From Hydrogenophaga intermedia (lineage in GTDB: Bacteria; Pseudomonadota; Gammaproteobacteria; Burkholderiales; Burkholderiaceae_C), in the NCBI RefSeq assembly GCF_000723405.1, contig NZ_CCAE010000022.1:1-64000 (forward strand): a stretch of 64,000 bases of DNA, read 5' to 3'. The translations under genes and the position numbers were made by a program. Under the pieces are notes generated by a model that did not search any database, was not told the origin of the DNA, and saw only the letters and a program-made list of their open reading frames with translations. Each line of letters begins with the position of its first letter. Within the stretch, counting starts at the first letter, position 1. Below, in pieces: positions 10,782 to 60,061 of this stretch.

Positions 10782-10873
10782 CTCGCTCGCTCCTTGTTCT
10801 GCCGAAGTGGCAGGCGATTGTGCAAGCAAGTGCCACGCGGGACGCGTCGCGTCGGCGCGTCGGCGGCGCGGGC

Positions 10874-11578: not shown

Positions 11579-11684
11579 GGGGACCGGAGATCGAAGGGGG
11601 AGTGCGTCGCGCACGTGCGCCGCGGGGACTGACATTCCCGCAGGACGACGCTACGCTGCGGCCCGCAACCCAAGCAGGAACCCC

Positions 11685-13772
11685 ATGCCAACGCCTCCCT
11701 ACGTGCCCCAGATCCGCCGCTACACCGATTGGCTCGCGCAGCACCATGGCCTGCGCTTCGACGGATACCACGACCTGTGGCAGTGGTCCGTCACCGATCT
11801 CTCGGGGTTCTGGAAGTCCGTTGAAGAATACTTTGGATTGCATTTTGAGAGCAAGAACGAGAACGTTCTGTTGCACAACACCATGCCCGGTACCCAGTGG
11901 TTCGTGGGCGGTCACGCCAACTACGTGAGCCAGGTGTTCCGTCATGTGGCGCCCGCGCACGCGGCCGGCATGCCCGCGCTGATCGCGCGCAACGAGAAGG
12001 GCCGCCACACCGAGCTGAGCTGGCCCGAGCTGCGCAGCCGGGTGGCCGCGCTGGCCTTGCACCTGAAGGCCCAGGGCGTGCGTCCGGGTGACCGCGTGGC
12101 GGCCTACCTGCCCAACATCCCGGAGACGGCGATCGCCTTCCTCGCGGTGGTGAGCATCGGCGGGGTGTGGAGCGTGTGCGCGCCCGACATGGGCACCAAC
12201 GCCGTGCTGGACCGTTTCCGCCAGATCGAGCCCGTGGCCCTCATCGCCTGCGATGGCGTGACCTATGGCCGGCGCGACATCGACCGCCTGGGCGTGGTGG
12301 CCGAGCTGCGCGCCGCCCTGCCCACGGTGCGCCACGTGGTGATGCACACCAATCTGGCCGAGACCGCCGACGCCAAGGCCGGCGTGTTGTCGCGCGCGGC
12401 GCCGTGCGTGCACTTCGAGGCGGTGGCGGCGCGCGACGACGCCGAGACTGCCGCCTTCGAACCTGTGGAGCTGCCCTTCGACCACCCGCTGTGGATCGTC
12501 TATTCCAGCGGCACCACCGGCCTGCCCAAGCCCATCGTGCATGGCCACGGCGGCACGGTGCTGGTCGGCTTGGCGCTCAAGAGCCTGCACAACGATATCG
12601 GCTGCAGCTATGAGCCCAACAGTTGGGGCGAGCGCTATCACTGGTACAGCTCCACCGGCTGGGTGATGTGGAACGCGCAGATCAGCGGCTTGCTCAACGG
12701 CACCACTTGCGTCATCTACGACGGCAACCCCGGCGGCTCGAAGGACGCGCCCGACTGGACCACGCTGTGGCGCTTCGCGGCCGAGACCGGCGTCACCTTC
12801 TTTGGGGCGGGCGCGGCGTTCTTCGCCAACTGCTTGAAAGCGGGGGTGAACCTGTCGCAGTGCGGCGATCTGTCGCGTGTGCGGGCCTTGGGTACCACGG
12901 GCTCGCCGCTGTCGGAAGACGCGCAGCGCTGGGGCACGGCGCAGTTCGCCGCCATCGCGGCGAGCGAAGCGCAGCAGGACATCTGGTGGTGCAACATCAG
13001 CGGCGGCACGGACTTCGCGGGCGCCTTCATCGGCGGCAATCGCGAGTTGCCGCAGGCGCCGGGGCGCATGCAGTGCCGTTTGTTGGGCTGCGCTGTGGAG
13101 TCCTGGAACGAGCGTGGCGAGCCTGTGATCGACGAGGTGGGTGAGCTGGTGTGCACGCAGCCCATCCCGTCCATGCCGCTGCACTTCGTGGGCGACAAGG
13201 ACAACCAGCGCCTGATCGGCAGCTACTTTGACGCCTACCCGCCCGGCCACGGGCGCCGACCCGGTGGCGGCGACCTCGGCCCCGAGGCCGGCGCCGTCTG
13301 GCGCCATGGTGACTGGCTGCGCGTGCTGCCCGACGGCTCCTGCATCATCTACGGCCGCTCGGACGCCACCATCAACCGCCACGGCCTGCGCATGGGCACC
13401 AGCGAGATCTACAGCGCCGTGGAGGCCTTGCCCGAGGTGCTCGATTCCATGGTGGTCGACCTGGAGTACCTGGGCCGCGAGAGCTGGATGCCGCTGTTCG
13501 TGGTGCTGCGCGAGGGTCACACGCTGGACGAAGCCTTGAGCGAGCGCCTGCGCGGCGCCATCCGCCAGACGCTGTCGCCGCGCTTCGTGCCCGACACGAT
13601 CTACCAGGTGAGCGAGATCCCTCGCACGCTGTCCGGCAAGAAGCAGGAGCTGCCGATCAAGAAGCTGCTCCTGGGCCAGCCGATCGAGAAGGTCATCAAC
13701 CGCGAGGCGATGGCCAACCCGGGCTGCCTGGACTGGTATGTGAAGCTGGCGCGCGAGCGCGCGGGGGCTTAG
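11685..13772 (+). CDS. Acetoacetyl-CoA synthetase (acetoacetate-CoA ligase)
   Basis: ATP-dependent ligase of the ANL superfamily activating acetoacetate. The 695-residue protein matches the long AACS type: the N-terminal ACS-like region (FWKSVEEYFGLHF), P-loop-like IVYSSGTTGLPKPIVHGHGG, the A5 region ISGGTDFAGAF, the hinge YGRSDATINRHGLRMGTSEIY and the C-terminal catalytic Lys in SGKKQELPIKK. The start at 11685 follows AGCAGGAA. It would support use of acetoacetate or ketone bodies. The stop overlaps by 4 bp the 3' end of the convergent NmrA-like gene. Confidence 0.94.
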   Translation: MPTPPYVPQIRRYTDWLAQHHGLRFDGYHDLWQWSVTDLSGFWKSVEEYFGLHFESKNENVLLHNTMPGTQWFVGGHANYVSQVFRHVAPAHAAGMPALIARNEKGRHTELSWPELRSRVAALALHLKAQGVRPGDRVAAYLPNIPETAIAFLAVVSIGGVWSVCAPDMGTNAVLDRFRQIEPVALIACDGVTYGRRDIDRLGVVAELRAALPTVRHVVMHTNLAETADAKAGVLSRAAPCVHFEAVAARDDAETAAFEPVELPFDHPLWIVYSSGTTGLPKPIVHGHGGTVLVGLALKSLHNDIGCSYEPNSWGERYHWYSSTGWVMWNAQISGLLNGTTCVIYDGNPGGSKDAPDWTTLWRFAAETGVTFFGAGAAFFANCLKAGVNLSQCGDLSRVRALGTTGSPLSEDAQRWGTAQFAAIAASEAQQDIWWCNISGGTDFAGAFIGGNRELPQAPGRMQCRLLGCAVESWNERGEPVIDEVGELVCTQPIPSMPLHFVGDKDNQRLIGSYFDAYPPGHGRRPGGGDLGPEAGAVWRHGDWLRVLPDGSCIIYGRSDATINRHGLRMGTSEIYSAVEALPEVLDSMVVDLEYLGRESWMPLFVVLREGHTLDEALSERLRGAIRQTLSPRFVPDTIYQVSEIPRTLSGKKQELPIKKLLLGQPIEKVINREAMANPGCLDWYVKLARERAGA

Positions 13773-45002: not shown

Positions 45003-45917
45003 TCACTCCTGCGGCAGCAAGCGCCCCGCGATGGCCGCGGCCGCCGCGCGCGTCTCCACGCCCAGCTTCTCGAACACGTGCTCCAGGTGCTTGTTCACCG
45101 TGCGGTGGCTCATGCCCAGGATGTCGGCGATGTCGCGGTTGGTCTTGCCCTTGGCCAGCCACGACAGCACCTCGGTCTCGCGCGGCGTCAGCGCCACCTC
45201 GCGCAGGCGCTGCGCCGCGGCGGTGTTCAGCGGCGTCAGGCTAAGCAGCAGCATGGACTCGCCCAGGCTGCCCTGGCCCAGGTGGCGCGCGAGCAGGCGG
45301 CCCTGCGCGCCGTCGGCCTGGGCCGTGCCCTCGCGCCGCGCCGCAGCCAGCCAGTGCGTGGCCTGGGCCTGACCCGCGGCGTCGGCACCGAAGGCCTGGC
45401 CCAACCACACCATGGCCTGCGGCGAGCGCCAGGCCAGGCGGCCCAGCGAGTCCAGCACCACCGTGCCCAGGCCTGCCACGTCCACCGCCTCCTGCGCCAG
45501 GCGCGCCACGCGGGCGTTGCGCACGTGCGTGGCCAGGCGCGCCATCACCTCGGGAATGCGCAGCGGCTTCACCACGTAGTCCACCCCACCGCTGGCGAAG
45601 CCGCGCAGCAGCGGCTCGCTGTCGGACAGACCGGTCATGAAGAGCACCGGCACGTGCGACCAGGCCGGCGTTGATTTGATGCGCTGACACAGGTCAAAGC
45701 CGTCCATGCCGGGCATCACGGCATCGAGCAGCACGCCGTCGGGGATGGCCACTTCGAAGCGATCCAGCGCCTCCTGCGCGTCGCGCGCGGCCAGCACCAC
45801 GTAGCCCTCGGCCACCAGCGCGTCGCCCAGCATGCGCAGGGTCTCCAGCGAATCGTCCACCACCAGCACCACAGGCTGGGTGGCCGCGGGCGGCGGCGTG
45901 TCAGACCAGGCTGTCAT
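45003..45917 (-). CDS. Response regulator with LuxR-type output, partner of the NCS1-kinase fusion
   Basis: A 304-residue regulator: receiver domain with Asp65 (PDGVLLDAVMPGMDG), a middle PAS-like region of about 100 residues (ARVARLAQEAVDVAGLGTVVLDSLGRLAWRSPQAM), and a LuxR helix-turn-helix (LTPRETEVLSWLAKGKTNRDIADILGMSHRTVNKHLEHVFEKLGV). Its start overlaps the end of the large kinase gene by 17 bp, so the two are a coupled pair. Likely targets are the divergent urt-fmd operon and amiE, which share a palindromic motif. Confidence 0.93.
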   Translation of the reverse strand: MTAWSDTPPPAATQPVVLVVDDSLETLRMLGDALVAEGYVVLAARDAQEALDRFEVAIPDGVLLDAVMPGMDGFDLCQRIKSTPAWSHVPVLFMTGLSDSEPLLRGFASGGVDYVVKPLRIPEVMARLATHVRNARVARLAQEAVDVAGLGTVVLDSLGRLAWRSPQAMVWLGQAFGADAAGQAQATHWLAAARREGTAQADGAQGRLLARHLGQGSLGESMLLLSLTPLNTAAAQRLREVALTPRETEVLSWLAKGKTNRDIADILGMSHRTVNKHLEHVFEKLGVETRAAAAAIAGRLLPQE

Positions 45918-48900
45918 CGTCGGAATGCTCCTCGGTGTCTCTCAGGTATTCGATCAGGGTCTGGAAATCGAATCGGTCGGCGCAGGCCAGCAACAGCGCC
46001 AGCGTGGCCGCGTGCGCGGGCTCGGTGCCCTGGGCCTGCCACAGGCGCTGGCGCAGCGCCGCCGCCTGGCCTTGCCGCGCCAGGCGCTGCAGCTCCTCGC
46101 GCAGCGCGTCGGGCAGCGGCAGGCCGGGGCGCGGGCGCACCGCCTGCACGCTCGCGCCACTGGCGGGCACCTGTTCGGTCAGCCATTCCAGCGACAAGGC
46201 GTGGCTGAGCGCGTCCAGCAACTCGGCTTCGCTCATGGGTTTGGCGACGAAGCCCTGGTAGTCCAGGTCCTTGAAGGCCTCGGGCCGGTTGTCGATCAGG
46301 TTGGCCGACACGAACACGATGGGCAAGCGCGCAGACGGCAAGCGTTCGCGCACGGCGTGCGCGGTCTCCCAGCCGTCCAGGCCGTCCATGGTCAGGTCCA
46401 GCAGCAGCAGGTCGGGGGGGCTGTGCTCGATGATCTCCAGGCACTCCTGCCCGCTGGCGGCCTCGCGCACCAGAAAACCCAGCGGCACCAGAATGCTGGC
46501 GAGCAGTTGCCGGTGCAGCGGCTGGTCGTCCACCACCAGCACCGTGCGGCGCGGGCCCAGGTAGCCGGTCACCGCGCGCAGGGTGGAGGGGATCGGCAGC
46601 GGGTGCTGCGGGTCGGACGCGATGGGCGGCAGGTACAGGCGCAGGCTGAAGGTGCTGCCCTGGCCCGGCGCGCTCCTGAGCGTGAGGTCGCCGCCCATCA
46701 TGTCGGTCAGCAGGTGGGTGATGGTCAGGCCCAGGCCGGTGCCCGAATCGCGCGCGCGCCGCCCGGCCGCGCCGCGCTCGTAGGGCAGAAAGATGCGCTT
46801 CTGGTCCTGCTCGGCAATGCCGATGCCGGTGTCCACCACGTCGATGCGCGCCACCTGCTGGCGAAAGTCCAGCCGCAACGTCACCTCGCCCTCGTCGGTG
46901 AAGCGCACCGCATTGCTCAGCAGGTTGATGAGGATCTGGCGCAGGCGCTTGGCGTCGGCGCGCACCCAGGCGGGCAGCTCGCCCTGGCGCTGCACCGTGA
47001 AGCGCAGGCCCTTGGCCTCGGCCTGCGGGCGCACCATGCGCTCCACGTCTTCCAGCAACTGCGGCAGGGGCAGGGGCACGGAGTCGAGCTTGAGGCGCCC
47101 GGCCTCGATGCGCGCGAGGTCCAGCGAACCGTCGATCAGCGCGTGCATGTGCTGGCCGCTGCGCTGCATGGTGGCGATGGTCTCGCGCACCCACACCGAG
47201 ATGTCGCTGTTCTTCTGCAGGATCTGCGCGTAGCCCAGGATGCTGGTGAGTGGCGTGCGCAGCTCGTGCGTCATGCCCGCCACGTAGCGCGTCTTGGCCT
47301 GGCTGGCGGCCTCGGCGCGGTCGCGCGCGGACTGCAGCTCGGCGTCCGTTCGCTGGTGCGCCTCGATCTCGCGCATCAGCAACTGCGTCTGGCGCTCCGA
47401 CTCGTCTTGCGCCATGCGGCGGCTGTCGGTGGTCAGCACCACCCACCACGAACACACCGCCGCGAACAGCACCAGGAAGGCGTAGATCTTGAGGAAGGGC
47501 AACTCCAGCGCGGCGCTCAGGCCATGCAGGCTTTCCTGCGCGTACACCATGCCGATCAGCAGGCCCATGATCGCGCTGATGGACAGCCACACCACCAGGA
47601 ACTGGCCGGCGCGAAAGTTCACCCGCGCCATCACGCCCTGCGGCAGCACCTGCGACAGCCAGCCGCGCACCTGGTCGATGGCGCGCGAGTTGGTCTTGCA
47701 GCGGTCGTGGCAGCGCGATTCGAGCGAGCAGCACAGCGAGCAGATCGGCGCGCGGTAGGCCGGGCAACTGGCCATGTCTTCCGATTCGAACGGGTTCTCG
47801 CACACCGCGCAGCGCACGATCTGCCCCGGCCACCACTCGGTGGACGGCTCGCGCGCGAGGTAGTAGCGCCCGCCCGTGGCCCAGGCCAGCAGCGGCGACA
47901 GCAGCAGCGACAGGCCCAGCGCGATGAAGGGCGAGAAGGCCGCGGCGACTTCGCCCATGAGGCCACCGTAGGCCAGACTGGCCACCAGCGCCGCGATGCT
48001 CATCGAGCCCATGCCGACCGGGTTGAAGTCGTACAGGTAGGCGCGGCGGAACTCGATGCCCTTGGGGCTCAGGCCCAGGGGCTTGTTGATGATCAGATCG
48101 GCCACCAGCGCGCCCACCCAGGCGATGGCCACATTGCTGTACACGCCCAGCACCTTCTCGATGCCGGCGAACACGCCCAGCAGCATCAGCAGCGTGGCGA
48201 TGGATACGTTGAACACCAGCCACACCACGCGCCCGGGGTGGCTGTGCGTGACCCGCGCGAAGAAGTTGCTCCAGGCCAGCGAGCCCGCGTAGGCGTTGGT
48301 CACGTTGATCTTGATCTGCGCCAGGATCACGAACACCACCGTCATGATCACCGCCAGCCCCGGGTGGCCCACCGCTTCGGTGAAGCCGGCCAGGAACATC
48401 TGCGTGGGCTCGGCCGTGCGCTCGGGGTCCACCTCGAACTGCATGGCGGCGAAGGCCAGAAACGCGCCGCCCACCATCTTGAGCATGCCCATCACGATCC
48501 AGCCCGGCCCGGGAATCAGCACCGCCAGCCACCAGCGCAAACGGTTCTTCGCCGTGCGCTCGGGCATGAAGCGCAGGAAGTCCACCTGCTCGCCGATCTG
48601 CACCACCAGCGAGAAGATCACCGCGGCCGCCGCGCCGAACATCAGCGGCTCGAAGCCGCTGCTGCCCGAGCGCAGGCCGCTGAGGCTGCCGAAGTCGCGG
48701 TACATCTGTGGCTGCGACAGCGCGATCCAGACGAAGGGCAGCAGCAGCAGGAACAGGTAGAGCGGCTGCGTCCAGGCCTGCAGGCGCGAGATCAGCGTGA
48801 TGCCCTTCATGGCCAGCGGGATCGCCACCACCGCCGAGATCAGGTAGCACACCGGCAGCGGCCAGTCGGTGGCCAGTTGCAGCGCCAGCGCCATGATCAC

Positions 48901-49329
48901 CGCCTCGATGGCGAAGAAGATGAAGGTGAACACCGCGTAGATCAGCGAGGTGATCGTCGAGCCCAGGTAGCCGAAGCCCGCGCCGCGCGTCAGCAGGTCC
49001 ATGTCCAGCCCGTGGCGCGCCGCGTAGTAGGCGATGGGCAGGCCGGTGAAGAAGATGATCAGGCCCACCACCAGGATCGCCCACATGGCGTTGGCGAAGC
49101 CGTAGTTCACCGCGATGGCGCCGCCGATCGCCTCCAGCGCCAGGAACGACAGCGAGCCGAAGGCGGTGTGGCCCACGCGCCACTCGCTCCACTTGCGAAA
49201 GCTGCGCGGCGCATAGCGCAGCGCGTAGTCCTCCATGGTCTCGTCGGCCACCCACGAGTTGTATTCGCGACGGAAGCGAAAGATCTTCTGCGCGGTGATG
49301 GGGGGCGCGGCGGGCTCGGGCGGCTGCAT
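45901..49329 (-). CDS. NCS1 permease fused to a Cys-rich domain and hybrid histidine kinase
   Basis: A 1142-residue one-gene transporter-sensor. Residues 20-490 are an NCS1 (cytosine/allantoin/hydantoin-type) permease with about 12 membrane segments. Residues 507-544 hold CX2C-X11-C-X7-CX2CC-X5-CHX2C, a probable zinc domain. Two further membrane segments (about 578-595 and 613-632) and a coiled coil lead to HisKA with His688 (GMTHELRTP), HATPase with Asn806, and a receiver with Asp978, plus an 80-residue tail. It starts at ATG 49329, divergent from urtA, and overlaps its regulator gene. By architecture it should sense an imported or bound N-compound such as a urea, hydantoin or amide. Whether it also transports is open. 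Confidence 0.95.
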   Translation of the reverse strand: MQPPEPAAPPITAQKIFRFRREYNSWVADETMEDYALRYAPRSFRKWSEWRVGHTAFGSLSFLALEAIGGAIAVNYGFANAMWAILVVGLIIFFTGLPIAYYAARHGLDMDLLTRGAGFGYLGSTITSLIYAVFTFIFFAIEAVIMALALQLATDWPLPVCYLISAVVAIPLAMKGITLISRLQAWTQPLYLFLLLLPFVWIALSQPQMYRDFGSLSGLRSGSSGFEPLMFGAAAAVIFSLVVQIGEQVDFLRFMPERTAKNRLRWWLAVLIPGPGWIVMGMLKMVGGAFLAFAAMQFEVDPERTAEPTQMFLAGFTEAVGHPGLAVIMTVVFVILAQIKINVTNAYAGSLAWSNFFARVTHSHPGRVVWLVFNVSIATLLMLLGVFAGIEKVLGVYSNVAIAWVGALVADLIINKPLGLSPKGIEFRRAYLYDFNPVGMGSMSIAALVASLAYGGLMGEVAAAFSPFIALGLSLLLSPLLAWATGGRYYLAREPSTEWWPGQIVRCAVCENPFESEDMASCPAYRAPICSLCCSLESRCHDRCKTNSRAIDQVRGWLSQVLPQGVMARVNFRAGQFLVVWLSISAIMGLLIGMVYAQESLHGLSAALELPFLKIYAFLVLFAAVCSWWVVLTTDSRRMAQDESERQTQLLMREIEAHQRTDAELQSARDRAEAASQAKTRYVAGMTHELRTPLTSILGYAQILQKNSDISVWVRETIATMQRSGQHMHALIDGSLDLARIEAGRLKLDSVPLPLPQLLEDVERMVRPQAEAKGLRFTVQRQGELPAWVRADAKRLRQILINLLSNAVRFTDEGEVTLRLDFRQQVARIDVVDTGIGIAEQDQKRIFLPYERGAAGRRARDSGTGLGLTITHLLTDMMGGDLTLRSAPGQGSTFSLRLYLPPIASDPQHPLPIPSTLRAVTGYLGPRRTVLVVDDQPLHRQLLASILVPLGFLVREAASGQECLEIIEHSPPDLLLLDLTMDGLDGWETAHAVRERLPSARLPIVFVSANLIDNRPEAFKDLDYQGFVAKPMSEAELLDALSHALSLEWLTEQVPASGASVQAVRPRPGLPLPDALREELQRLARQGQAAALRQRLWQAQGTEPAHAATLALLLACADRFDFQTLIEYLRDTEEHSDDDSLV

Positions 49330-49384: not shown

Positions 49385-49402
49385 CTACGTTATTTGACTT
49401 AT
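49385..49402. promoter_or_regulatory. Candidate operator in the divergent kinase/urtA promoter
   Basis: CTACGT-TATTTG-ACTTAT, an imperfect 18-bp inverted repeat, matches 12 of 18 positions of the perfect palindrome upstream of amiE (56520-56537). It ends 84 bp before the urtA ATG. Also nearby are direct repeats GTACCCACC (49351) and GTACCCCACC (49376). Confidence 0.5.
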
Positions 49403-49486: not shown

Positions 49487-50755
49487 ATGAAGCACCAACC
49501 CGATCCGAACGACGTTTCCCCGGAAACCCCCGAAGCCAGCCGCCGCCGCGTGCTGCAGATGCTGGGCGCCGCCGGCCTGGCCGGCCTGCCCACGTGGAGC
49601 TTCGGCCAGCCCACCGCGCAGGTGAACACCACCAAGCTGGCCGTCACCGACACCGAGGTCACCGTCGGTCAGTTGCACTCGTCCACCGGCACCATGGCCA
49701 TCTCGGAGACGGGCTCCATCCAGGCCGAGCAGCTCGCCATCGACCAGATCAACGCCATGGGCGGCATCCTGGGCCGCAAGATCAAGGTCATCAAGGAAGA
49801 CGGCGCCTCCGACTGGCCCACCTTCGCCGAGAAGTCCAAGAAGCTGCTCATCAACGACCGCTGCGCCGCCGTCTTCGGCTGCTGGACCAGCGCCTCGCGC
49901 AAGGCCGTGCTGCCGGTGTTCGAGAAAGAGAACGGCCTGCTGTACTACCCCACCTTCTACGAAGGCCTGGAGCAGTCGAAGAACGTGATCTACACCGGCC
50001 AGGAAGCCACGCAGCAGATCCTCTACAGCCTGGACTGGGCGCAGAAGGAGAAGAAGGCCAAGACCTTCTTCCTCATCGGCTCCGACTACATCTGGCCGCG
50101 CACCTCCATGAAGATCGCGCGCAAGCACATCGAGGCCTTCCAGAAGGGCAAGGTCGTCGGCGAGGAGTACTACCCGCTGGGCAGCACGAACTTCGGTTCG
50201 CTGATGAACAAGATCAAGCTGCAGAAGCCCGACGTGATCTTTGCCGCCGTGGTGGGTGGCTCCAACGTGGCCTTCTACAAGGCGCTCAAGGCGGCCGGCA
50301 TCACCGGTGACAAGCAGACCCTGGTGACCCTGTCGGTGACCGAGGACGAGATGACCGGCGTGGGCGGCGAAAACTTCAAGGGCTTCTACTCGTCCATGAA
50401 GTATTTCCAGTCGCTGGAGAACGAGAACAACAAGAAGTTCGTGGCCGCCTTCAAGGCCAAGTACGGCAAGGACGCCGTCATCGGCGACGTGACGCAGGCC
50501 GGCTACCTGGGCCCCTGGCTGTGGAAGGCCGCGGTCGAGAAGGCCAAGAGCTTCGACGTCGACAAGGTGGTCGCCGCCTCGGAGACCGGCATCGAGCTCA
50601 AGGACGCGCCCGAGGGCTACGTGAAGCTCGACCCCAACCACCACCTCTGGAGCAAGTCGCGCATCGCGATGGGCATGCCGGACGGCACGTTCAAGGTGGT
50701 GTCGGAGTCGCCCGAGCTGATCAAGCCTGACCCCTTCCCCAAAGGCTACCAGTAA
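49487..50755 (+). CDS. urtA: Urea/short-chain amide ABC transporter substrate-binding protein
   Basis: Periplasmic binding protein of the UrtA/FmdD family, 422 residues. A Tat-type signal (ASRRRVLQMLGAAGLAGLP) precedes the type I periplasmic fold: VTVGQLHSSTGTMAISETGSIQAEQLAIDQINAMGGILGRKIKVI, VFGCWTSASRKAVLPVFE, and KNVIYTGQEATQQI. ATG 49487 has AGGAG at 49476-49480. First gene of a seven-gene operon ending in formamidase; homologous FmdD of Methylophilus binds short amides as well as urea, so substrate range may include formamide. Confidence 0.94.
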   Translation: MKHQPDPNDVSPETPEASRRRVLQMLGAAGLAGLPTWSFGQPTAQVNTTKLAVTDTEVTVGQLHSSTGTMAISETGSIQAEQLAIDQINAMGGILGRKIKVIKEDGASDWPTFAEKSKKLLINDRCAAVFGCWTSASRKAVLPVFEKENGLLYYPTFYEGLEQSKNVIYTGQEATQQILYSLDWAQKEKKAKTFFLIGSDYIWPRTSMKIARKHIEAFQKGKVVGEEYYPLGSTNFGSLMNKIKLQKPDVIFAAVVGGSNVAFYKALKAAGITGDKQTLVTLSVTEDEMTGVGGENFKGFYSSMKYFQSLENENNKKFVAAFKAKYGKDAVIGDVTQAGYLGPWLWKAAVEKAKSFDVDKVVAASETGIELKDAPEGYVKLDPNHHLWSKSRIAMGMPDGTFKVVSESPELIKPDPFPKGYQ

Positions 50756-50788: not shown

Positions 50789-51703
50789 ATGAGTTTCAAC
50801 GACCTGCTCAACATCGGCGTCATGCAGGGCTTCGCGGGCCTGAGCCTGTTCGCGGTGCTGCTGCTCATGGGGCTGGGCCTGGCCATCATCTTCGGGCAGA
50901 TGGGCGTGATCAACATGGCGCATGGCGAGTTCATGACCATCGGCGCCTACACCATCTTCCTCGGCTCCACCCTGGCCGAGGCGATCAGCCCCGGCGCGGT
51001 GGCGGCCTACTTCCCCTTCGCCATCGTCGCCGCCTTCGTCTTCGCCTTCATCGCCGGCTGGATCGTCGAGTGGGCGCTGATCCGCCACCTCTACAAGCGC
51101 CCGCTGGACACGCTGCTGGCCACCTGGGGCATCAGCCTGGCGCTGCAGCAATGCTTTCGCACCTTCATCGGCCCCAAGGAAGTGAGCCCCACGCTGCCCG
51201 AGTGGCTGATGGGTTCCTGGGCGCCCACCGAAGGCCTGGACATTCCCATCAACGGCCTGTTCGTGCTCGCGCTCACGGCGGTGGTCACGGGCGGCGTGCT
51301 GCTGGCCCTGCACCGAAGCCGCTGGGGCCTGCGGGTGCGCGCCACCGTCAGCAACCGCGTCATGGCCAACGCCATCGGCATTGACACGAAGAAGACCGAC
51401 CGCCTCACCTTCGCCATCGGCTGCGGCATCGCGGGCGTGGCTGGCGCGGCCTTCACCACCATCGGCTCCACCGGCCCCACCTCGGGCTCGCTCTACATCG
51501 TCGACGCCTTCCTGGTCGTCACCTTCGGTGGCGCGGCCAGTCTGCTGGGCACCGTGGTCTCGGCCTTCGGCATCGCGCAGACCCAGTCCATCACCGAGTT
51601 CTTCCTGGCCGGCTCCATGGCCAAGGTGCTCACGCTCTCGCTCATCGTCGTGATCCTGATGCTGCGTCCGCAAGGCCTCTTCGCCTCCAAGGTCCGCCGC
51701 TGA
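50789..51703 (+). CDS. urtB: Urea/amide ABC transporter permease
   Basis: Inner-membrane permease of the LivH class, 304 residues. The signature GLGLAIIFGQMGVINMAHGEFMTIGAY near residue 25-50 and a C-terminal FGGAASLLGTVVSAFGIAQTQSITEFFLAGS identify UrtB. 33 bp after urtA with a GGAG ribosome site. The long N-terminal signal extension of some UrtB proteins is absent, as in the FmdE-like form. Confidence 0.93.
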   Translation: MSFNDLLNIGVMQGFAGLSLFAVLLLMGLGLAIIFGQMGVINMAHGEFMTIGAYTIFLGSTLAEAISPGAVAAYFPFAIVAAFVFAFIAGWIVEWALIRHLYKRPLDTLLATWGISLALQQCFRTFIGPKEVSPTLPEWLMGSWAPTEGLDIPINGLFVLALTAVVTGGVLLALHRSRWGLRVRATVSNRVMANAIGIDTKKTDRLTFAIGCGIAGVAGAAFTTIGSTGPTSGSLYIVDAFLVVTFGGAASLLGTVVSAFGIAQTQSITEFFLAGSMAKVLTLSLIVVILMLRPQGLFASKVRR

Positions 51704-51728: not shown

Positions 51729-52934
51729 ATGAACACCTTGAAAGCCTGGATCACCCGCTACCAGCTCGCCAGCCTGGTGCTGCTCACCGTGCTGCTGGCG
51801 GTGGTGCTGCCGCTGTCGCTGGACATCTTCCGCCTCAATCTGGTGGGCAAATACCTCACCTACGCCTTCGTGGCCATCGGTCTGGTAATGCTGTGGGGCT
51901 ACGGCGGCGTGCTCAGCCTGGGGCAGGGCGTGTTCTTCGGCCTGGGCGGCTACGCCATGGCCATGTTCCTCAAGCTCGAGGCGTCCGACCCCGAGAGCAC
52001 CAAGATCCAGTCCACGCCGGGCATCCCCGACTTCATGGACTGGAACCAGATCACCGAGCTGCCCTCGTTCTGGTTGCCGTTCAAGAGCTTTCCCTTCGCG
52101 CTGGCGGCCGTCATCGTGGTGCCCACGCTGCTGGCCTGGCTGATCGGCTTCGCCATGTTCAAGCGGCGCGTGGGCGGCGTGTACTTCGCCATCATCACGC
52201 AGGCCGTGGCGCTCATCCTCACCGTGCTCATCATCGGCCAGCAGGGCTACACGGGCGGCGTCAACGGCATGACCGACCTGAAGACCCTGATGGGCTGGGA
52301 CACGCGCACCGACAGCGCCAAGTACATCCTGTACTTCGTGTGCGTGGGCCTGCTGGTGCTGGCCATCGTGGCCTGCCGCTGGGTGCAGACCAGCAAGCTC
52401 GGCACCCTGCTGCTGGCCATGCGCGACAAGGAAGACCGGGTGCGTTTCTCGGGCTACGACGTGGCCGACTTCCGCATCTTCGTGTACTGCCTGGCGGCCG
52501 CGCTCTCGGGCATCGGCGGCGCGCTGTTCACGCTGCAGGTGGGCTTCATGTCGCCCAGCTTCGTGGGCATCGTGCCCTCCATCGAAATGGTCATCTACGC
52601 CGCGGTGGGCGGGCGCATGAGCCTGGTGGGCGCGGTCTACGGCGCGCTGCTGGTCAATGCGGGCAAGACCTTCTTCTCCGAGAGCTTCCCCGACCTGTGG
52701 CTGTTCCTCATGGCCGCGCTGTTCATCGGCGTGACCATGGCCTTCCCCATGGGCCTGGCGGGTCTGTGGGAGAGCCGCATCCTGCCCTGGTGGAAGGGCC
52801 GCCGCACGGCGCTGCGCGAGGCCGCGGCCTCGCGCCCGCAACCGCCGTCACCACCGCCGCAGGCGCCGCACAAGCCCGTGGCCTCCACGGCCGAGGTGAC
52901 GCTGCCCGAGGGCACCAGCGGCCAGAGCGTCTGA
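51729..52934 (+). CDS. urtC: Urea/amide ABC transporter permease
   Basis: Inner-membrane permease of the LivM class, 401 residues, with the signature AIGLVMLWGYGGVLSLGQGVFFGLGGYAMAMFL and RDKEDRVRFSGYDVADFRIFVYCLAAALSGIGGALF. The C-terminus carries a Pro/Ala-rich tail (SRPQPPSPPPQAPHKP) after the last membrane segment. 25 bp after urtB. Confidence 0.93.
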   Translation: MNTLKAWITRYQLASLVLLTVLLAVVLPLSLDIFRLNLVGKYLTYAFVAIGLVMLWGYGGVLSLGQGVFFGLGGYAMAMFLKLEASDPESTKIQSTPGIPDFMDWNQITELPSFWLPFKSFPFALAAVIVVPTLLAWLIGFAMFKRRVGGVYFAIITQAVALILTVLIIGQQGYTGGVNGMTDLKTLMGWDTRTDSAKYILYFVCVGLLVLAIVACRWVQTSKLGTLLLAMRDKEDRVRFSGYDVADFRIFVYCLAAALSGIGGALFTLQVGFMSPSFVGIVPSIEMVIYAAVGGRMSLVGAVYGALLVNAGKTFFSESFPDLWLFLMAALFIGVTMAFPMGLAGLWESRILPWWKGRRTALREAAASRPQPPSPPPQAPHKPVASTAEVTLPEGTSGQSV

Positions 52935-52947
52935 TCAGGAGCACACC

Positions 52948-53691
<744 letters not shown>

Positions 53692-53704: not shown

Positions 53705-54394
53705 ATGCTGCAAGTCAAGGACCTCGTCGTCGCCTATGGCCAGAGCCAGGCGCTGCACGGCATCAGCTTCGAGGCGCGCGAGAACGAGGCGGTGGCCATC
53801 ATGGGCCGCAACGGCATGGGCAAGACCACGCTGTTCAAGAGCCTCATGGGTGTGCTGCCCACCAAGAGCGGCCACGTCAGCGTCGCGGGCCAGGACGTGA
53901 CGCGCGACGAGAGTTTTCGCCGCGTGGCCAAGGGCCTGGCCTACGTGCCGCAAGGGCGCATGGTCTTTCCCACGCTGACGGTGGAAGAGAACATCCAGAC
54001 CGGCCTGGAGAACGCGAAGGACAAGACGATCCCGCAGGAGATCTACGCGCTGTTTCCCGTGCTGTGGGACATGCGCCGCCGCAAGGGCGGCAACCTCTCC
54101 GGCGGTCAGCAGCAACAGCTGGCGATCGCGCGCGCGCTCGTCACCAACCCCAAGGTGCTGCTGCTCGACGAGCCCACCGAAGGCATCCAGCCGTCCATCA
54201 TCAAGGACATCGCCAAGGCGCTCAACGAGATCCGCAAGATGCGAAAGATCACCATCGTGGTCTCCGAGCAGGTGCTCTCGTTCGCCATGGACGTTGCCGA
54301 CCGCCTGTTCGTCATCGAAGGCGGGCGCCTGGTGCACGAGACCGAGCGCGCCAACACCGACCAGCAGCGCATCAAGGCCTACCTGTCGGTCTGA
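53705..54394 (+). CDS. urtE: Urea/amide ABC transporter ATP-binding protein UrtE
   Basis: LivF-class ATPase, 229 residues: Walker A GRNGMGKTTLFKSL, LAYVPQGRMVFPTLTVEENIQTGL, signature LSGGQQQQLAIARAL and Walker B LLLDEPTEGIQPSII. The phrase EPTEGIQPSII is typical of UrtE. Followed after 45 bp by formamidase, so the operon delivers substrate straight to an amide hydrolase. No urease genes are in the window. Confidence 0.94.
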   Translation: MLQVKDLVVAYGQSQALHGISFEARENEAVAIMGRNGMGKTTLFKSLMGVLPTKSGHVSVAGQDVTRDESFRRVAKGLAYVPQGRMVFPTLTVEENIQTGLENAKDKTIPQEIYALFPVLWDMRRRKGGNLSGGQQQQLAIARALVTNPKVLLLDEPTEGIQPSIIKDIAKALNEIRKMRKITIVVSEQVLSFAMDVADRLFVIEGGRLVHETERANTDQQRIKAYLSV

Positions 54395-54439: not shown

Positions 54440-55666
54440 ATGCCCGACACCCTCATCAAGGTCGACCTCTCGCAACCCGCGCCGTCCAACGAACTGGTGC
54501 ACAACCGCTGGCACCCCGACATCCCCATGGCCTGCTGGGTCAACCCGGGCGACGACTTCGTGCTCGAGACCTACGACTGGACGGGCGGCTTCATCCAGAA
54601 CAACGACAGCGCCGACGACGTGCGCGACATCGACCTCACCACCGTGCACTACCTCAGCGGCCCGGTGGGCGTGAAGGGTGCCGAGCCCGGCGACCTGCTG
54701 GTGGTGGACCTGCTCGACATCGGCGCCAAGGACGACAGCCTCTGGGGCTTCAACGGCTTCTTCAGCAAGAAGAACGGCGGCGGCTTCCTCACCGAGCATT
54801 TCCCCCAGGCGCAGAAGTCCATCTGGGACTTCCACGGCATGTTCACCACCTCGCGCCACGTGCCCGGCGTCAAGTACGCGGGCCTCATCCACCCCGGCCT
54901 CATCGGCTGCCTGCCCGATCCGAAGATGCTGGAGACCTGGAACACGCGCGAGCAGGCGCTGATCGATTCCGACCCCGCCACCAGCGGCCTGGCCAACCCG
55001 CCCTTTGCCGGCACCGCGCACATGGGCAAGCTCAGCGGCGATGCACTGAAGAAGGCGGCGGCCACCGGCGCGCGCACCGTGCCGCCGCGCGAACACGGCG
55101 GCAACTGCGACATCAAGGATCTCTCGCGCGGCTCGAAGATCTTCTTCCCCGTCTACGTGGACGGCGCGGGCCTGTCCGTGGGCGACCTGCACTTCAGCCA
55201 GGGCGACGGCGAGATCACCTTCTGCGGCGCCATCGAGATGGCCGGCTGGGTGCACATGAAGGTGCAGATCATCAAGGGCGGCATGGCCAAGTACGGCATC
55301 AAGAACCCGATCTTCAAACCCAGCCCCATCAAACCCACCTACGACGACTACGTCATCTTCGAAGGCATCAGCGTCGACGAGAGCGGCAAGCAGTACTACC
55401 TGGACGTGAACGTGGCCTACCGCCAGGCCTGCCTCAACGCCATCGAGTACCTCAAGAAGTTCGGCTACTCGGGCGCGCAGGCCTACTCCATCCTCGGCAC
55501 GGCGCCGGTGCAGGGCCACATCAGCGGCGTGGTCGACGTGCCCAATGCGTGCGCCACGCTGTGGCTGCCCACGCAGATCTTCGACTTCGACATCAACCCG
55601 AACGCGAGCGGGCCGATCAAGCACATCGACGGCTCGATCCAGATGCCGCTCTCACCGGACCTCTGA
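54440..55666 (+). CDS. fmdA: Formamidase
   Basis: Cytosolic hydrolase converting formamide to formate and ammonia, of the acetamidase/formamidase (FmdA_AmdA) family. The 408-residue protein keeps NRWHPDIPMACWVNPGDDFVLETYDWTGG, GPVGVKGAEPGDLLVVDLLDIG, the metal-site region PREHGGNCDIKDLSRGSKIFFPVYVDGAGLSVGDLHFSQGDGE and a C-terminal NACATLWLPTQIFDFDI. Sixth gene of the urt operon; an AGGAG precedes the ATG. Confidence 0.96.
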   Translation: MPDTLIKVDLSQPAPSNELVHNRWHPDIPMACWVNPGDDFVLETYDWTGGFIQNNDSADDVRDIDLTTVHYLSGPVGVKGAEPGDLLVVDLLDIGAKDDSLWGFNGFFSKKNGGGFLTEHFPQAQKSIWDFHGMFTTSRHVPGVKYAGLIHPGLIGCLPDPKMLETWNTREQALIDSDPATSGLANPPFAGTAHMGKLSGDALKKAAATGARTVPPREHGGNCDIKDLSRGSKIFFPVYVDGAGLSVGDLHFSQGDGEITFCGAIEMAGWVHMKVQIIKGGMAKYGIKNPIFKPSPIKPTYDDYVIFEGISVDESGKQYYLDVNVAYRQACLNAIEYLKKFGYSGAQAYSILGTAPVQGHISGVVDVPNACATLWLPTQIFDFDINPNASGPIKHIDGSIQMPLSPDL

Positions 55667-55682
55667 CAGCGCGGAGCCGCCC

Positions 55683-56024
55683 ATGCCGACCTACGACTAC
55701 GCCTGCCCGGCCTGCGGCGGCTTCGATGCCTACCGCTCGCTGAGCGAGCGCAACGAGCCGGCGCATTGCCCCGACTGCGGCACCGCCTCGCCGCGCGTGT
55801 TCGCCACCGCGCCGCGCCTGGCGCTCATGGACGGCGCCACGCGCACGGCGATGGGCATCAACGAGCGCGCGCGGCACGAGCCGAAACGCTCGGGCGACTA
55901 CGCGCGCCTGAAGCACCCCGCGGGCTGCGGCTGCTGCAGCCCCGGGCGCAGCAAGGCCACCGTCACCGCGCCGAACGGCGCCAAGGCGTTTCCCTCGAAG
56001 CGCCCCTGGATGATCAGTCACTGA
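55683..56024 (+). CDS. fmdB: FmdB-family zinc-ribbon protein
   Basis: A 113-residue protein with a zinc ribbon (YACPACGGF...AHCPDCGTASPR, residues 6-37) that defines the FmdB regulatory family, followed by a longer C-terminal part with a second Cys group (GCGCC). In Methylophilus the fmdB gene adjoins formamidase and amide transporter genes and was proposed to regulate them. Its role here is inferred from that. Its stop overlaps by 11 bp the convergent small exported protein. Confidence 0.88.
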   Translation: MPTYDYACPACGGFDAYRSLSERNEPAHCPDCGTASPRVFATAPRLALMDGATRTAMGINERARHEPKRSGDYARLKHPAGCGCCSPGRSKATVTAPNGAKAFPSKRPWMISH

Positions 56025-56519: not shown

Positions 56520-56537
56520 ATACGTCAATCAACGTAT
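56520..56537. promoter_or_regulatory. Perfect 18-bp palindrome upstream of amiE
   Basis: ATACGT-CAATCA-ACGTAT, a perfect 6-bp inverted repeat with a 6-base centre, 69 bp before the amiE ATG. It shares 12 of 18 positions with the site upstream of urtA, so both may bind the LuxR-type regulator paired with the NCS1-kinase protein. Confidence 0.6.
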
Positions 56538-56606: not shown

Positions 56607-57647
56607 ATGATGCACGGCGACATTTCGAGCAGCCAGGACACCGTCGGCGTGGCCGTCGTCAATTACAAGATGCCGCGCCTGCACACCAAGGCCGAGGTGC
56701 TGGACAACGCGCGCAAGATCGCCGACATGGTGGTCGGCATGAAGCAGGGCCTGCCCGGCATGGACCTGGTGATCTTCCCGGAGTACAGCACGCACGGGAT
56801 CATGTACGACGCGAAGGAGATGTACGAGACCGCGTCCACCGTGCCCGGCGCCGAGACCGAGATCTTTGCCCAGGCCTGCCGCCAGGCCAAGGTGTGGGGC
56901 GTGTTCTCGCTCACCGGCGAACAGCACGAGGAGCACCCGTACAAGGCGCCCTACAACACGCTCATTCTGATGAACGACCAGGGCGAGATCGTGCAGAAGT
57001 ACCGCAAGATCATGCCCTGGGTGCCCATCGAAGGCTGGTACCCCGGCAACTGCACCTACGTGAGCGAAGGCCCCAAGGGCCTGAAGGTCAGCCTGATCAT
57101 CTGCGACGACGGCAACTACCCCGAGATCTGGCGCGACTGCGCCATGAAGGGGGCCGAGCTCATCGTGCGCTGCCAGGGCTACATGTACCCCGCCAAGGAC
57201 CAGCAGGTGCTGATGGCCAAGGCCATGGCCTGGGCCAACAACAGCTACGTGGCCGTGGCCAACGCCTCGGGCTGGGACGGCGTCTACAGCTACTTCGGGC
57301 ACAGCGCGATCATCGGCTTCGACGGCCGCACCTTGGGCGAGTGCGGCGAAGAGGACTACGGCGTGCAATACGCGGCGCTGTCGAAAAGCCTGATCCGCGA
57401 CTTTCGCAAGAACGCGCAGAGCGAGAACCACCTGTTCAAGCTGCTGCACCGCGGCTACACGGGGATGATCAACTCACAAGAGGGCGACAAGGGCGTGGCC
57501 GCCTGCCCCTACGAGTTCTACGGCAAGTGGGTGAACGACCCCGAAGGCACGCAGAAGGCGGTGGAAGCCATCACGCGGCCCATGGTGGGCACCGAGGAAT
57601 GCCCGATCGAGGGCATTCCGAACCCGGCCACCGCGGGCCACCGCTGA
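56607..57647 (+). CDS. amiE: Aliphatic amidase
   Basis: Nitrilase-superfamily amidase that hydrolyses acetamide, propionamide and similar short amides. The 346-residue protein begins [20 protein letters not shown] as in Pseudomonas AmiE and keeps Glu59, Lys134, Glu142 and the nucleophile Cys166 at identical numbering. ATG 56607 is preceded by GAGGA. Unlike Pseudomonas, amiCRS regulators are not adjacent; instead a MoxR ATPase and VWA protein follow after two bases, recalling the AAA-type amiB of the Pseudomonas operon. Confidence 0.97.
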
Positions 57648-57649
57648 GC

Positions 57650-58459
57650 GTGTCGTCCACCGACCCGCTGGCCGACTGGCGCCTCGCCGAGGAGCCCTTC
57701 TACCAGCCGGTGGGCGAGGAGATCGCGGGCTTCGAGGCCGCGCGCGCCGCGCGCCTGCCGGTGCTGCTCAAGGGCCCCACGGGCTGCGGCAAGACGCGCT
57801 TCGTCGAGCACATGGCCTGGCGGCTGAAGCTGCCGCTGGTGACCGTGGCCTGCCACGAGGACCTGAGCGCCGGCGACCTGGCGGGCCGCTGGCTGCTCGA
57901 TGGCGAGGGCACGCGCTGGATGGACGGCCCGCTGGCCCTGGCCGCGCGGCACGGCGCGCTGTGCTACCTGGACGAGCTGATGGAGGCGCGCGCCGACACC
58001 ACCGTGCTGCTTCACCCGCTGGCCGACACGCGCCGCGCGCTGCCACTGGAGCGCCACGGCGAGCTGTTGCACGCGCACCCCGATTTCCAGCTCGTGGTCA
58101 GCTACAACCCCGGCTACCAGGGCCTGCACCGTGAGCTCAAGCCCTCCACGCGGCAGCGCTTCGTGGCGCTGGGCTTCGACTACCCCGAGCCCGAGGTGGA
58201 GGCCGCCATCGTGGCGCGCGAGGGCGGTGTCGATGCCGAACTTGCCATGCGCCTGGTGCGGCTCGCTGTCCGCACGCGCCGCCTGCGAGAGGAGGGCCTG
58301 GACGAGGGCGCGTCCACCCGCATGCTGGTGCACGCGGCGCTGTTGCACCGTGCGGGACTGCCGGTTCGCGCGGCGGCGCGGCAGTCCATCGCCGACCCCC
58401 TGAGCGACGACCCGCAGCTCGCGCCCAGCCTGCGTGCGCTGGTGGACGCGAGTTTCTGA
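57650..58459 (+). CDS. MoxR-family AAA+ ATPase (CbbQ/NorQ-like)
   Basis: A 269-residue ATPase from a GTG start two bases after amiE. It shows Walker A LLKGPTGCGKTRFVEHMAWRL, Walker B GALCYLDELMEAR, and LVVSYNPGYQGLHRELKPSTRQRF, the arrangement of CbbQ/NirQ/NorQ proteins that, with a VWA partner, activate or remodel a client enzyme. The VWA partner is the next gene. Being in an amiE operon suggests a role in amidase assembly or activity, but its client could be another enzyme. Confidence 0.92.
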   Translation: MSSTDPLADWRLAEEPFYQPVGEEIAGFEAARAARLPVLLKGPTGCGKTRFVEHMAWRLKLPLVTVACHEDLSAGDLAGRWLLDGEGTRWMDGPLALAARHGALCYLDELMEARADTTVLLHPLADTRRALPLERHGELLHAHPDFQLVVSYNPGYQGLHRELKPSTRQRFVALGFDYPEPEVEAAIVAREGGVDAELAMRLVRLAVRTRRLREEGLDEGASTRMLVHAALLHRAGLPVRAAARQSIADPLSDDPQLAPSLRALVDASF

Positions 58460-58462
58460 ACC

Positions 58463-60061
58463 ATGGCCGCGTCGGCCGACCTGCCGGGCCAGGTGCGCGC
58501 CCTGGCCCATGCGCTGTGGGGCGAACCCTGGCGTGTGGAGGTGCGCGCGGGGCCGGCCGAGGCGACGCAGCGCGCGGTGCTCGAGTTCGGCGCGGGGGCG
58601 GATGCGGTGCTGCACCTGCCCACGTGGGCCACGCCGGGGCTGGCCCTGGCCATGGCAGCCCACGCTGCCGCGCACCGTCGCTTCGGCGGTGAGCCGCAAG
58701 CGCGCGCGGGGCTCAAGCCCGTGCAACAGGCCCTGCTGGGCGTGCTGGAAGACGCCCGCGTGGAATGGCTTGCCCTGCGGGAGTTGGCCGGCCTGCGCGC
58801 CGTGTGGTGGCCCTTCCACGCCGAGGCCGCCGCGCGCCGGGGCAGTGGATTCGAGGAGCTGCTCGCGCGCCTCGCGGCCAGCCTGTTGCAACCCGATCAC
58901 GAGGACCCGCACGCCTGGGTCGCCAAGGTGCGGCGGGTGTTCTTCGCGTCGGACGGCAGTCTCGCGCTCGACACGCCGGCCCGCGTGCGCGAGGCCGCCT
59001 CGGTGCTGGGCCACGACATCGGCCAGATGCGCCTGCCCTTCAATTCGCGCACCTACACCGTCTCGGCGCGCTACCGGGACGACAACAGCCACCTCTGGCA
59101 AGCCGACGACGAGCCGCCGCGCGACGAGGCGCCGCTGCACGCCGACGCCGCACCGCCCACCGACGACGCGCCGGCGGCCTCACCCACGCCGATCGCGCCC
59201 GAGCCCGACGCCGTCTACCCCGAGTGGGACCACCGCATCGGGCGCTACCGGCCCGACTGGTGCCGCGTGTTCGGCGGTGAACCGCGCGTGGGCGAGGGCG
59301 CGCCCATGGCGCCGGCCGCGCCACGCCACCTGCAACGCCGGCTCGCCCACCTGAGCCGGCAGCGTCGCGCGGGCGGCGGGCGCAGCGCCGATGGTGACGA
59401 CCTGCACCCCGCCGCAGCGGTGGAGGCGCGGCTCGACCGCCTTGCGGGCCTCACGCCCGAGGCGCGCGTGTACCGCACGCCGCAGCGACCCGCGCCGCCG
59501 CTGGCCGTGCTGCTCCTGCTCGACGCCTCGGCCTCCACGCATGGCGAGCCGCTGGCGCAACTGGAGCGGGGCGCCCTGGCCAGCGCCCAGGCCTTGCGCG
59601 CGCTGGGCCACCGCAGCGCCGTGTGGGCCTTCTCCAGCCGGGGCCGTCAGCGCATCGACATGCCCTGCCTGCGCCACTGGGACGACGTGTCGGTCTCCGC
59701 CCCGAGGCCAGCCTTGCGCGCGGGCGGCTCCACGCGCATGGGCGCCGCGCTGCGACACGCCCTGCACCTGAGCGCGCTCGACCAGCGCCGCCACCCGGGG
59801 CGCCGGCGCCTGATCGTGCTGCTGAGCGACGGCGAGCCACACGATGTGGATGTGCACGACCCCGCGTACCTGCCGGCCGACCTGCAACGCGCCGCGCGCG
59901 AGGCCGCCGCGCACGGCGTGGGCGTGCGCGCGCTGGTGCTGGCGCCCGGCGAGCCGGCCACGCTGGCGGCCGCCCTGGGGCGCGCCCACGTGCGGGCCTG
60001 CCGCTCATCGGCGCACTGGCCCGCCGCCGTGGCCGCCTTGCTGGCCCAAGCCCCTCACTGA
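58463..60061 (+). CDS. VWA-domain protein, NorD/CbbO-like partner of the MoxR ATPase
   Basis: A 532-residue protein with a C-terminal von Willebrand A domain carrying the metal-binding MIDAS: DASAS in LLLLDASASTHGE, Thr in GGSTRMGAALRH and Asp in VLLSDGEPHDVD. The N-terminal 330 residues are mostly helical with a Pro/Ala-rich acidic linker. In CbbQO/NorQD systems the VWA protein links the AAA ring to its substrate. Start 58463, three bases after the ATPase stop. Operon amiE-moxR-vwa. Confidence 0.9.
   Translation: MAASADLPGQVRALAHALWGEPWRVEVRAGPAEATQRAVLEFGAGADAVLHLPTWATPGLALAMAAHAAAHRRFGGEPQARAGLKPVQQALLGVLEDARVEWLALRELAGLRAVWWPFHAEAAARRGSGFEELLARLAASLLQPDHEDPHAWVAKVRRVFFASDGSLALDTPARVREAASVLGHDIGQMRLPFNSRTYTVSARYRDDNSHLWQADDEPPRDEAPLHADAAPPTDDAPAASPTPIAPEPDAVYPEWDHRIGRYRPDWCRVFGGEPRVGEGAPMAPAAPRHLQRRLAHLSRQRRAGGGRSADGDDLHPAAAVEARLDRLAGLTPEARVYRTPQRPAPPLAVLLLLDASASTHGEPLAQLERGALASAQALRALGHRSAVWAFSSRGRQRIDMPCLRHWDDVSVSAPRPALRAGGSTRMGAALRHALHLSALDQRRHPGRRRLIVLLSDGEPHDVDVHDPAYLPADLQRAAREAAAHGVGVRALVLAPGEPATLAAALGRAHVRACRSSAHWPAAVAALLAQAPH

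Follow-up and report, generated by a model that had tools for sequence, protein, structure and literature searches.

A permease-histidine kinase fusion beside urea and amide genes in Hydrogenophaga: a probable transporter-derived sensor of short-chain amides

What does a histidine kinase that carries an entire permease at its N terminus sense, and which genes does it control? The question is raised by a locus of Hydrogenophaga intermedia in the 64,000-nucleotide stretch of DNA that we analysed (contig NZ_CCAE010000022.1, positions 1 to 64,000; hereafter the window), where a single 1142-residue gene joins a permease-like domain, a cysteine-rich linker, two further membrane helices and a hybrid histidine kinase. 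A first-pass annotation had described it as an NCS1 permease-zinc domain-kinase fusion acting as a transporter-sensor; the observation itself has been confirmed, and its interpretation is partly supported. We propose that the protein is probably a sensor derived from a transporter, which responds to short-chain amides (to urea in the case of a paralogue) and switches on the genes for uptake and hydrolysis through a LuxR-type response regulator. We favour this because of the linkage of the fusion to urt, ure, fmd and ami genes, the paralogue located at a urease operon, a palindromic promoter element, the neighbours of kinase-free homologues of the permease and the pocket residues shared with them.

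The open reading frame is uninterrupted, and a split of the gene by sequencing error can be excluded because homologues of residues 1-647 occur in 60 of 67 genomes from the genus and fusions without interruption are found repeatedly in the phylum. The survey of genomes proposed by the first-pass annotation uncovers a large and conserved family, and the permease-kinase fusion is common in Pseudomonadota: 61 of 398 genomes sampled from the phylum match at E 1e-3, part of them through plain permeases, and 536 of 72,556 plasmid records do so at E 1e-5. The genome of the window (5.29 Mb in 124 contigs) itself contains a second copy, 50% identical (G000:C1:134753-138148), and the closest named relative, 98% identical, is a protein from a Hydrogenophaga metagenome-assembled genome. 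Klebsiella plasmid records matching the permease-linker region number 342; in one of them (L274, NZ_ON002624.1) the region sits with urtABCDE and formamidase.

The neighbours point to urea and amides, as had been proposed. In the window, urtABCDE, fmdA, fmdB and amiE are divergent from the kinase gene, on its upstream side; NCBIfam models recovered fmdA and all of UrtA to UrtE above their cut-offs, and fmdB was identified as well. We counted neighbours in 81 loci, namely the window and the 80 nearest genome_contigs loci. In 77 of them the kinase gene is followed on its own strand by a regulator gene of the same family, the contig ending at the kinase in the other four, and in 63 urtA is divergent upstream of the kinase. 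By direct tblastn, urt, ure, fmd or ami genes are found near the kinase in 75 of the 80 nearest loci, the other five being L077, a 3.8-kb contig, L117, with 0.7 kb upstream, and three real exceptions (L111, L135 and L144), whose neighbours gave no clue to function. A second survey covered 60 loci, four of which, from the genus or from the genome itself, were left out of the counts: urt and/or urease genes lie within about 9 kb in 52 of the 56 phylum loci, L192 and L200 are linked to fmdA/fmdB, and L172 and L206 are truncated by contig ends. The second copy in our genome adjoins urease and another UrtA, and likely senses urea. The inducer of the window copy, judging from gene content, is likely a short-chain amide such as formamide or acetamide, because its neighbours encode a formamidase and an amidase and its UrtA barely passes the urea model (509.7 versus a cut-off of 492.75 bits; the other UrtA of the genome scores 600.8). 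PhoR reads the state of the Pst importer, and the frequency of divergent urtA genes could suggest that our kinase similarly monitors whether UrtABCDE is loaded or working rather than binding a ligand, an idea to which we attach very little weight and which fits poorly with the kinase being kept at loci that have no full urt set nearby (L297, L277 with a urtA fragment only, L192 and L200).

A promoter element gives the proposed regulation a candidate target. A near-invariant block, TACGTTATTTGACKTATGGG, lies between the kinase gene and urtA in Hydrogenophaga loci. The pattern TACG[CT]-N6-[AG]CGTA occurs in 83 of 115 distinct main-group upstream regions versus 26 of 3633 control windows, counts that are not independent since many of the regions with the palindrome come from related species, and in 0 of the 13 regions of a hand-labelled urease-context group, four rows of which come from the genus or from the genome itself. 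These numbers cover 128 of 140 loci, after exclusion of ten in which no kinase start could be recognised and two whose upstream DNA was too short or a duplicate. In its strict form, TACGT-N6-ACGTA, the palindrome was found 15 distinct times in 12 genomes: 13 belong by position to the urt/amiE locus (the second palindrome of G036 was assigned to amiE by spacing only), one stands 66 nt before a relocated amiE on another contig of G272, and the fifteenth (G021:C89) was counted with no target assignment. We can therefore extend the first-pass annotation, in that the local targets would include amiE, with a common palindromic element. Scanning the intergenic region for sigma-70 promoters gave no match. 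The palindrome could instead belong to another regulator, either a general nitrogen regulator or one of the TetR or LuxR type, and merely mark amide genes. Such a reading, which we consider unlikely, draws on the fact that regulator and site are paired by conservation only, on one similar site in a TetR/MFS intergenic region, and on the urease-linked L119, whose palindrome blurs the separation of palindrome-bearing from urease-context loci (L130, also urease-linked and outside the 13-row group, has none). It does not sit well with the lack of palindromes in the urease-context group, most of which forms a kinase clade of its own (11 of the 13 fall in one clade of 14 in an 86-row tree, with L199 and L205 apart), nor with the palindrome before the relocated amiE; moreover CrbR, the LuxR-type partner of an SLC5-STAC kinase, also needs an imperfect inverted repeat, according to the available part of PMC5715377.

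The ligand would be recognised by the N-terminal domain, whose assignment to NCS1 in the first-pass annotation is upheld by profile comparison, fold and a bridging protein and not by Pfam. The PF02133 profile has no match up to E 10 in residues 1-647 of the window protein or its paralogue and none across the whole genome; no Pfam family at all matches these residues even at E 10, and direct Pfam and PDB-sequence searches with the permease returned nothing usable, the single weak matches being unrelated soluble enzymes. We nevertheless regard the domain, on profile and model evidence, as a divergent member of the NCS1-type fold and homology group, for three reasons. A stand-alone homologue (L068, 497 aa) is 30% identical to the domain (E 3e-38) and matches PF02133 (36.4 bits, cut-off 23.5). 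In a single hhalign comparison, the fusion profile aligned with a CodB set (E. coli CodB and 31 homologues gathered by jackhmmer) over 369 columns, with probability 98.9 and E 2.8e-17. Finally, the AlphaFold model of residues 1-660 (mean predicted local distance difference test, pLDDT, 77.6; predicted template modelling score 0.77) has chains of Mhp1 and CodB in the first five places of a Foldseek comparison with the PDB (E 3.6e-8 to 6.3e-7; best E 3.6e-8 for Mhp1 and 3.2e-7 for CodB), the first SLC5 structure coming only sixth and other LeuT-fold proteins also ranking behind, and there is no Pfam SLC5 (SSF) match.

Homologues of this domain also exist free of any kinase and measure about 535-575 aa. 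The one whose full sequence we read closes with a four-Cys stub, shortened relative to the linker of the fusion, and PF02133 did not match the three of the clade against which it was run. We examined 12 places (10 of 18 stand-alone-like plasmid records and two genomes), and in 10 of them the permease adjoins urea/amide genes or the kinase itself. Urease is the neighbour in L276, L294, L289 and L296, from Acinetobacter johnsonii and A. ursingii (which have the identical protein), Klebsiella CP125156 and G726; fmdA in L288 and L292, from Moraxella and Tsukamurella; an amidase (amiE)-AAA ATPase-acs group in Arthrobacter U41 (L291); and the kinase in G712, Methylovirgula and a record labelled A. 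baumannii. In L289 (7956-9563(+), a Klebsiella pneumoniae record), the clade member directly behind the urease genes is annotated as 'cytosine permease' and is likelier a urea permease. The G712 locus (L297, stand-alone at 10767-12377(+)) has the order permease-fmdA-fmdB-amiE, divergent from the kinase with the palindrome between, and no urt match within 19.5 kb, so that the permease occupies the place that urtABCDE has in the window. The same module is joined to unrelated outputs, which argues for an input module and a sensory role: in G592 one gene fuses it to PAS-GGDEF-EAL (L219:3852-7526(-)) and another to PAS-PAS-HisKA-HATPase-REC, and in G491 and G156 it is fused to kinases with no receiver. 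In the 86-row tree the stand-alones form one group with weak support (90/62); its root, and with it the direction of change from permease to sensor or the reverse, is not fixed because the outgroup is very distant. The Moraxella region (L288:10732-16347) also holds annotated aminoglycoside resistance genes and transposases, and the PAS-GGDEF-EAL fusion of L219 may be a urea/amide-responsive cyclic di-GMP enzyme.

We mapped the substrate and Na2 sites of CodB, as given in the accessible part of PMC9379551, onto the domain in a joint alignment. Like Mhp1 and CodB, which are also its best fold matches, it keeps the D/R motif of transmembrane helix 6 (TM6) and the TM8 Asn (CodB Asn280, here Asn342). 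Unlike them, it has Phe138 in place of the TM3 Trp (CodB W108), the position being Phe in 22 and Leu in 1 of 23 rows of this family and Trp in 31 of the 32 NCS1 proteins aligned; Glu142 takes the position of Mhp1 Gln121, and the Na2 hydroxyl residues T278/T279 of CodB become Lys340/Ile341 (Lys in 23/23, Ile or Val in 23/23). The TM6 aromatic is replaced by Leu241 and CodB Ala207 by Gln244. The lysine at the sodium position suggests a loss of Na+ coupling, because the hydroxyls of the site are replaced, and Na+-coupled import of the CodB/Mhp1 kind thus seems unlikely for the fusion permease; position 278 is variable in the 32 ordinary NCS1 proteins too (G 12, T 9, A 5, S 2, D 2). Signalling forms and stand-alones have a predicted pocket in common and differ at few positions: E142, Q244, E247, Q248, D250, K340 and N342 are identical in 67/67 hybrid kinases, 5/5 other-output fusions and 11/11 stand-alones, with variation at T135 (Cys in two of the five other-output fusions), F138 (Leu in eight of the 67 hybrid kinases) and L241 (Phe in one). 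So strict a sharing of core pocket residues would suit a transceptor proper, in which the kinase's own permease would carry the ligand across the membrane and the kinase would be driven by flux or transport state, and CbrA is described as a 'transceptor' combining transporter and kinase in the available part of PMC13022988. We find this possible and yet doubtful, as an ABC importer or a stand-alone permease is already encoded at most loci, the Na2 hydroxyls are gone (though gone in the stand-alones as well) and Glu66 in TM1 is present in 72/72 signalling forms and 0/11 stand-alones (nine F, two Q), which means that the signalling forms differ near the TM1 break.

We prefer a receptor of transporter descent: the sensor domain would share ancestry with a clade of stand-alone permeases, probable carriers of urea and short-chain amides, and would bind the same ligand class. 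A broader proposal, for which we see about even chances, is that an unnamed NCS1-like clade missed by Pfam comprises Na+-independent urea/short-chain-amide importers and a portable sensor module of the same fold. The importers would substitute for urtABCDE or work with urease, formamidase or amidase operons in Proteobacteria and Actinobacteria, the sensors would place permease, Cys linker and two helices on hybrid kinases, plain kinases or a PAS-GGDEF-EAL protein, and the TM1 position, Glu66 versus Phe/Gln, would separate the two.

Behind the permease comes the linker, which the first-pass annotation had taken for a zinc domain, an eight-Cys cluster with a CHxxC motif. All eight cysteines are invariant in the 24 full-length homologues aligned (an alignment that leaves out L023 and L049, whose starts are unusable, and most near-identical rows of the genus), and the motif is present as C540-H-D-R-C544, although its His is not conserved. 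A set of 61 diverse linkers was chosen by the motif ICSLCC, which fixes C530, C533 and C534 by selection; among the other cysteines, C507, C510 and C522 never vary in this set and C540/C544 are kept in at least 90%. The identification as a zinc domain found no backing, for neither Pfam nor PDB sequences nor PDB folds gave a significant match (scattered weak Pfam hits, best E 0.00065), and a treble-clef/RING-like fold is only suggested. Searching 143 genomes of the class with the linker gave 13 matches at E<1e-12, all within fusions of this family, except that in G497 the contig breaks off before the permease is reached. The AlphaFold model of residues 483-664 (pLDDT 88.3) has two beta-hairpins and a helix, followed by the two membrane helices that had been predicted, the last of which continues as a 58-residue helix towards HisKA. 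Given the invariance of the cysteines, the permease might be a mere membrane anchor with the linker sensing metal or redox (nickel for urease, for example, or oxidation). We hold this to be quite improbable, as the core pocket of the permease is equally strictly kept and common to kinase-free permeases, the four-Cys stub of the stand-alone implies that the cysteines do not serve signalling only, and the neighbours are urea/amide uptake and hydrolysis genes, metal genes not having been searched for.

The remaining parts are as first annotated. HisKA, HATPase_c and the receiver all score above their Pfam cut-offs, and His688 and Asp978 are invariant in 24/24 homologues, which makes this a hybrid histidine kinase; the regulator, whose gene overlaps that of the kinase by 17 bp (45901-45917), is of the LuxR/NarL type, with Response_reg at 17-128 and GerE at 242-297 by Pfam. 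An Hpt domain in the tail behind the receiver was considered and dropped, because the tail has no invariant His in the 24 homologues. We can thus outline how the amide sensor might work. Ligand binding, or an alternating-access movement, would be passed through the Cys-rich cytoplasmic linker and the last membrane helix to the HisKA coiled coil, a coupling we propose because that helix is continuous in the model. The movement would alter autophosphorylation of His688, phosphate would reach the LuxR-type regulator in a direct transfer or in one where the C-terminal receiver acts as brake or relay, and the phosphorylated regulator would bind TACGT-N6-ACGTA, a site whose conservation is observed, to activate urtABCDE-fmdAB and amiE.

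Several observations weigh against this proposal. Pfam fails to recognise the permease, and the preference for an amide over urea as inducer of the window copy comes from gene content only. Related loci are not independent counts. The exceptions L111, L135 and L144 have ample flanks with neither urea/amide gene nor palindrome, and the nearest same-family regulator of L111 is 2.6 kb off; the stand-alones of Streptomyces (L290) and Arthrobacter (L295) have no urea/amide neighbour. The palindrome is missing from 32 of the 115 main-group upstream regions and from the fmdA-linked L192 and L200, it is present in L119, where urease is the sole urea/amide neighbour, and the loose form TACGTN6ACNTA is genome-wide no commoner than its reversed control, only its position being striking.

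Table 1. Features of the permease-kinase locus, in window coordinates.
Feature	Coordinates	Strand	Remarks
Permease-hybrid histidine kinase gene	45901..49329	(-)	1142 aa, ATG start; open reading frame, Pfam, alignment
NCS1-like permease domain, residues 1-495	47845..49329	(-)	pocket E142, Q244, K340, N342 (predicted); E66 in TM1
Eight-Cys linker, residues 505-546	47692..47817	(-)	C507 C510 C522 C530 C533 C534 C540 C544
Two further membrane helices, residues 572-640	47410..47616	(-)	572-601 and from 606 on; models
HisKA, residues 678-744	47098..47298	(-)	phospho-acceptor His688; Pfam, alignment
HATPase_c, residues 792-900	46630..46956	(-)	Pfam
C-terminal receiver (Response_reg), residues 930-1041	46207..46542	(-)	Asp978; Pfam, alignment
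LuxR/NarL-type response regulator gene	45003..45917	(-)	304 aa; REC and GerE by Pfam
Palindromic promoter element TACGT-N6-ACTTA	49386..49401	.	one mismatch; between kinase and urtA; proposed regulator site
urtA	49487..50755	(+)	NCBIfam; ATG at 49487, frame open from 49370
urtB	50789..51703	(+)	NCBIfam
urtC	51729..52934	(+)	NCBIfam
urtD	52948..53691	(+)	NCBIfam
urtE	53705..54394	(+)	NCBIfam
fmdA, formamidase	54440..55666	(+)	NF045496, 748.6 bits, cut-off 500
fmdB, zinc-ribbon protein	55677..56024	(+)	
Strict palindrome TACGTCAATCAACGTA	56521..56536	.	70 nt 5' of amiE
amiE, aliphatic amidase	56607..57647	(+)	NF009802, 717.9 bits, cut-off 427

Directly 3' of amiE, the window encodes a CbbQ/NorQ-type AAA ATPase and a VWA protein (57650-60061(+)), perhaps an amidase activation pair; in Arthrobacter U41 (L291) an AAA ATPase likewise stands 3' of an aliphatic amidase. 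Elsewhere in the genome, a near-palindrome, TACGTGAATTGACATA, at G000:C64:12625-12640 (L268:3626-3641) is kept in G032 and G036; as a regulator target it was set aside, lying between TetR-type and MFS genes named by eye from their translations.

The first-pass annotation had called such a fusion little described, and our literature search agrees: among the matches listed there was no NCS1-kinase fusion, no urea/amide two-component system of this kind and no NCS1 urea transporter, most subscription journals being outside its coverage. If our proposal holds, it predicts the function of proteins now annotated as 'ATP-binding protein', 'allantoin permease' or 'cytosine permease', including those in Klebsiella and Acinetobacter plasmid records, and the promoter element could be used for calling targets. 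Among known systems, UhpC-UhpB-UhpA resembles the proposed one in having a sensor homologous to the transporter it regulates and a LuxR-type regulator; it differs in that UhpC is a separate, unfused MFS protein of another fold. The fmd system of Methylophilus methylotrophus reportedly combines binding-protein-dependent uptake of short-chain amides and urea with a formamidase. In a review whose reference list covers this system (PMC10781810), the terms 'two-component' and 'histidine kinase' have 0 occurrences. The analogy with CbrA drawn at first sight is sound at the level of architecture: the SLC5-STAC kinases (CbrA/CbrB, CrbS/CrbR, RpuS/RpuR) likewise have a LeuT-fold permease N-terminal to a histidine kinase and control the use of small nutrients, namely histidine, acetate and pyruvate in the available parts of PMC13022988, PMC5715377 and PMC9100948. 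They consist of an SLC5 permease and a four-helix STAC linker, as far as the accessible part of PMC13022988 describes them, whereas the window protein has an NCS1-like permease, an eight-Cys linker modelled as beta-hairpins and short helices, and two extra membrane helices. Our design therefore appears to resemble theirs with another permease and another linker, and is apparently unstudied. Since the bacterial transporter-kinase fusions in the available parts of the cited papers all use SLC5 permeases, a second design, built on another permease family and tied to urea/amide nitrogen, would make it possible to test independently how transporters turn into receptors.

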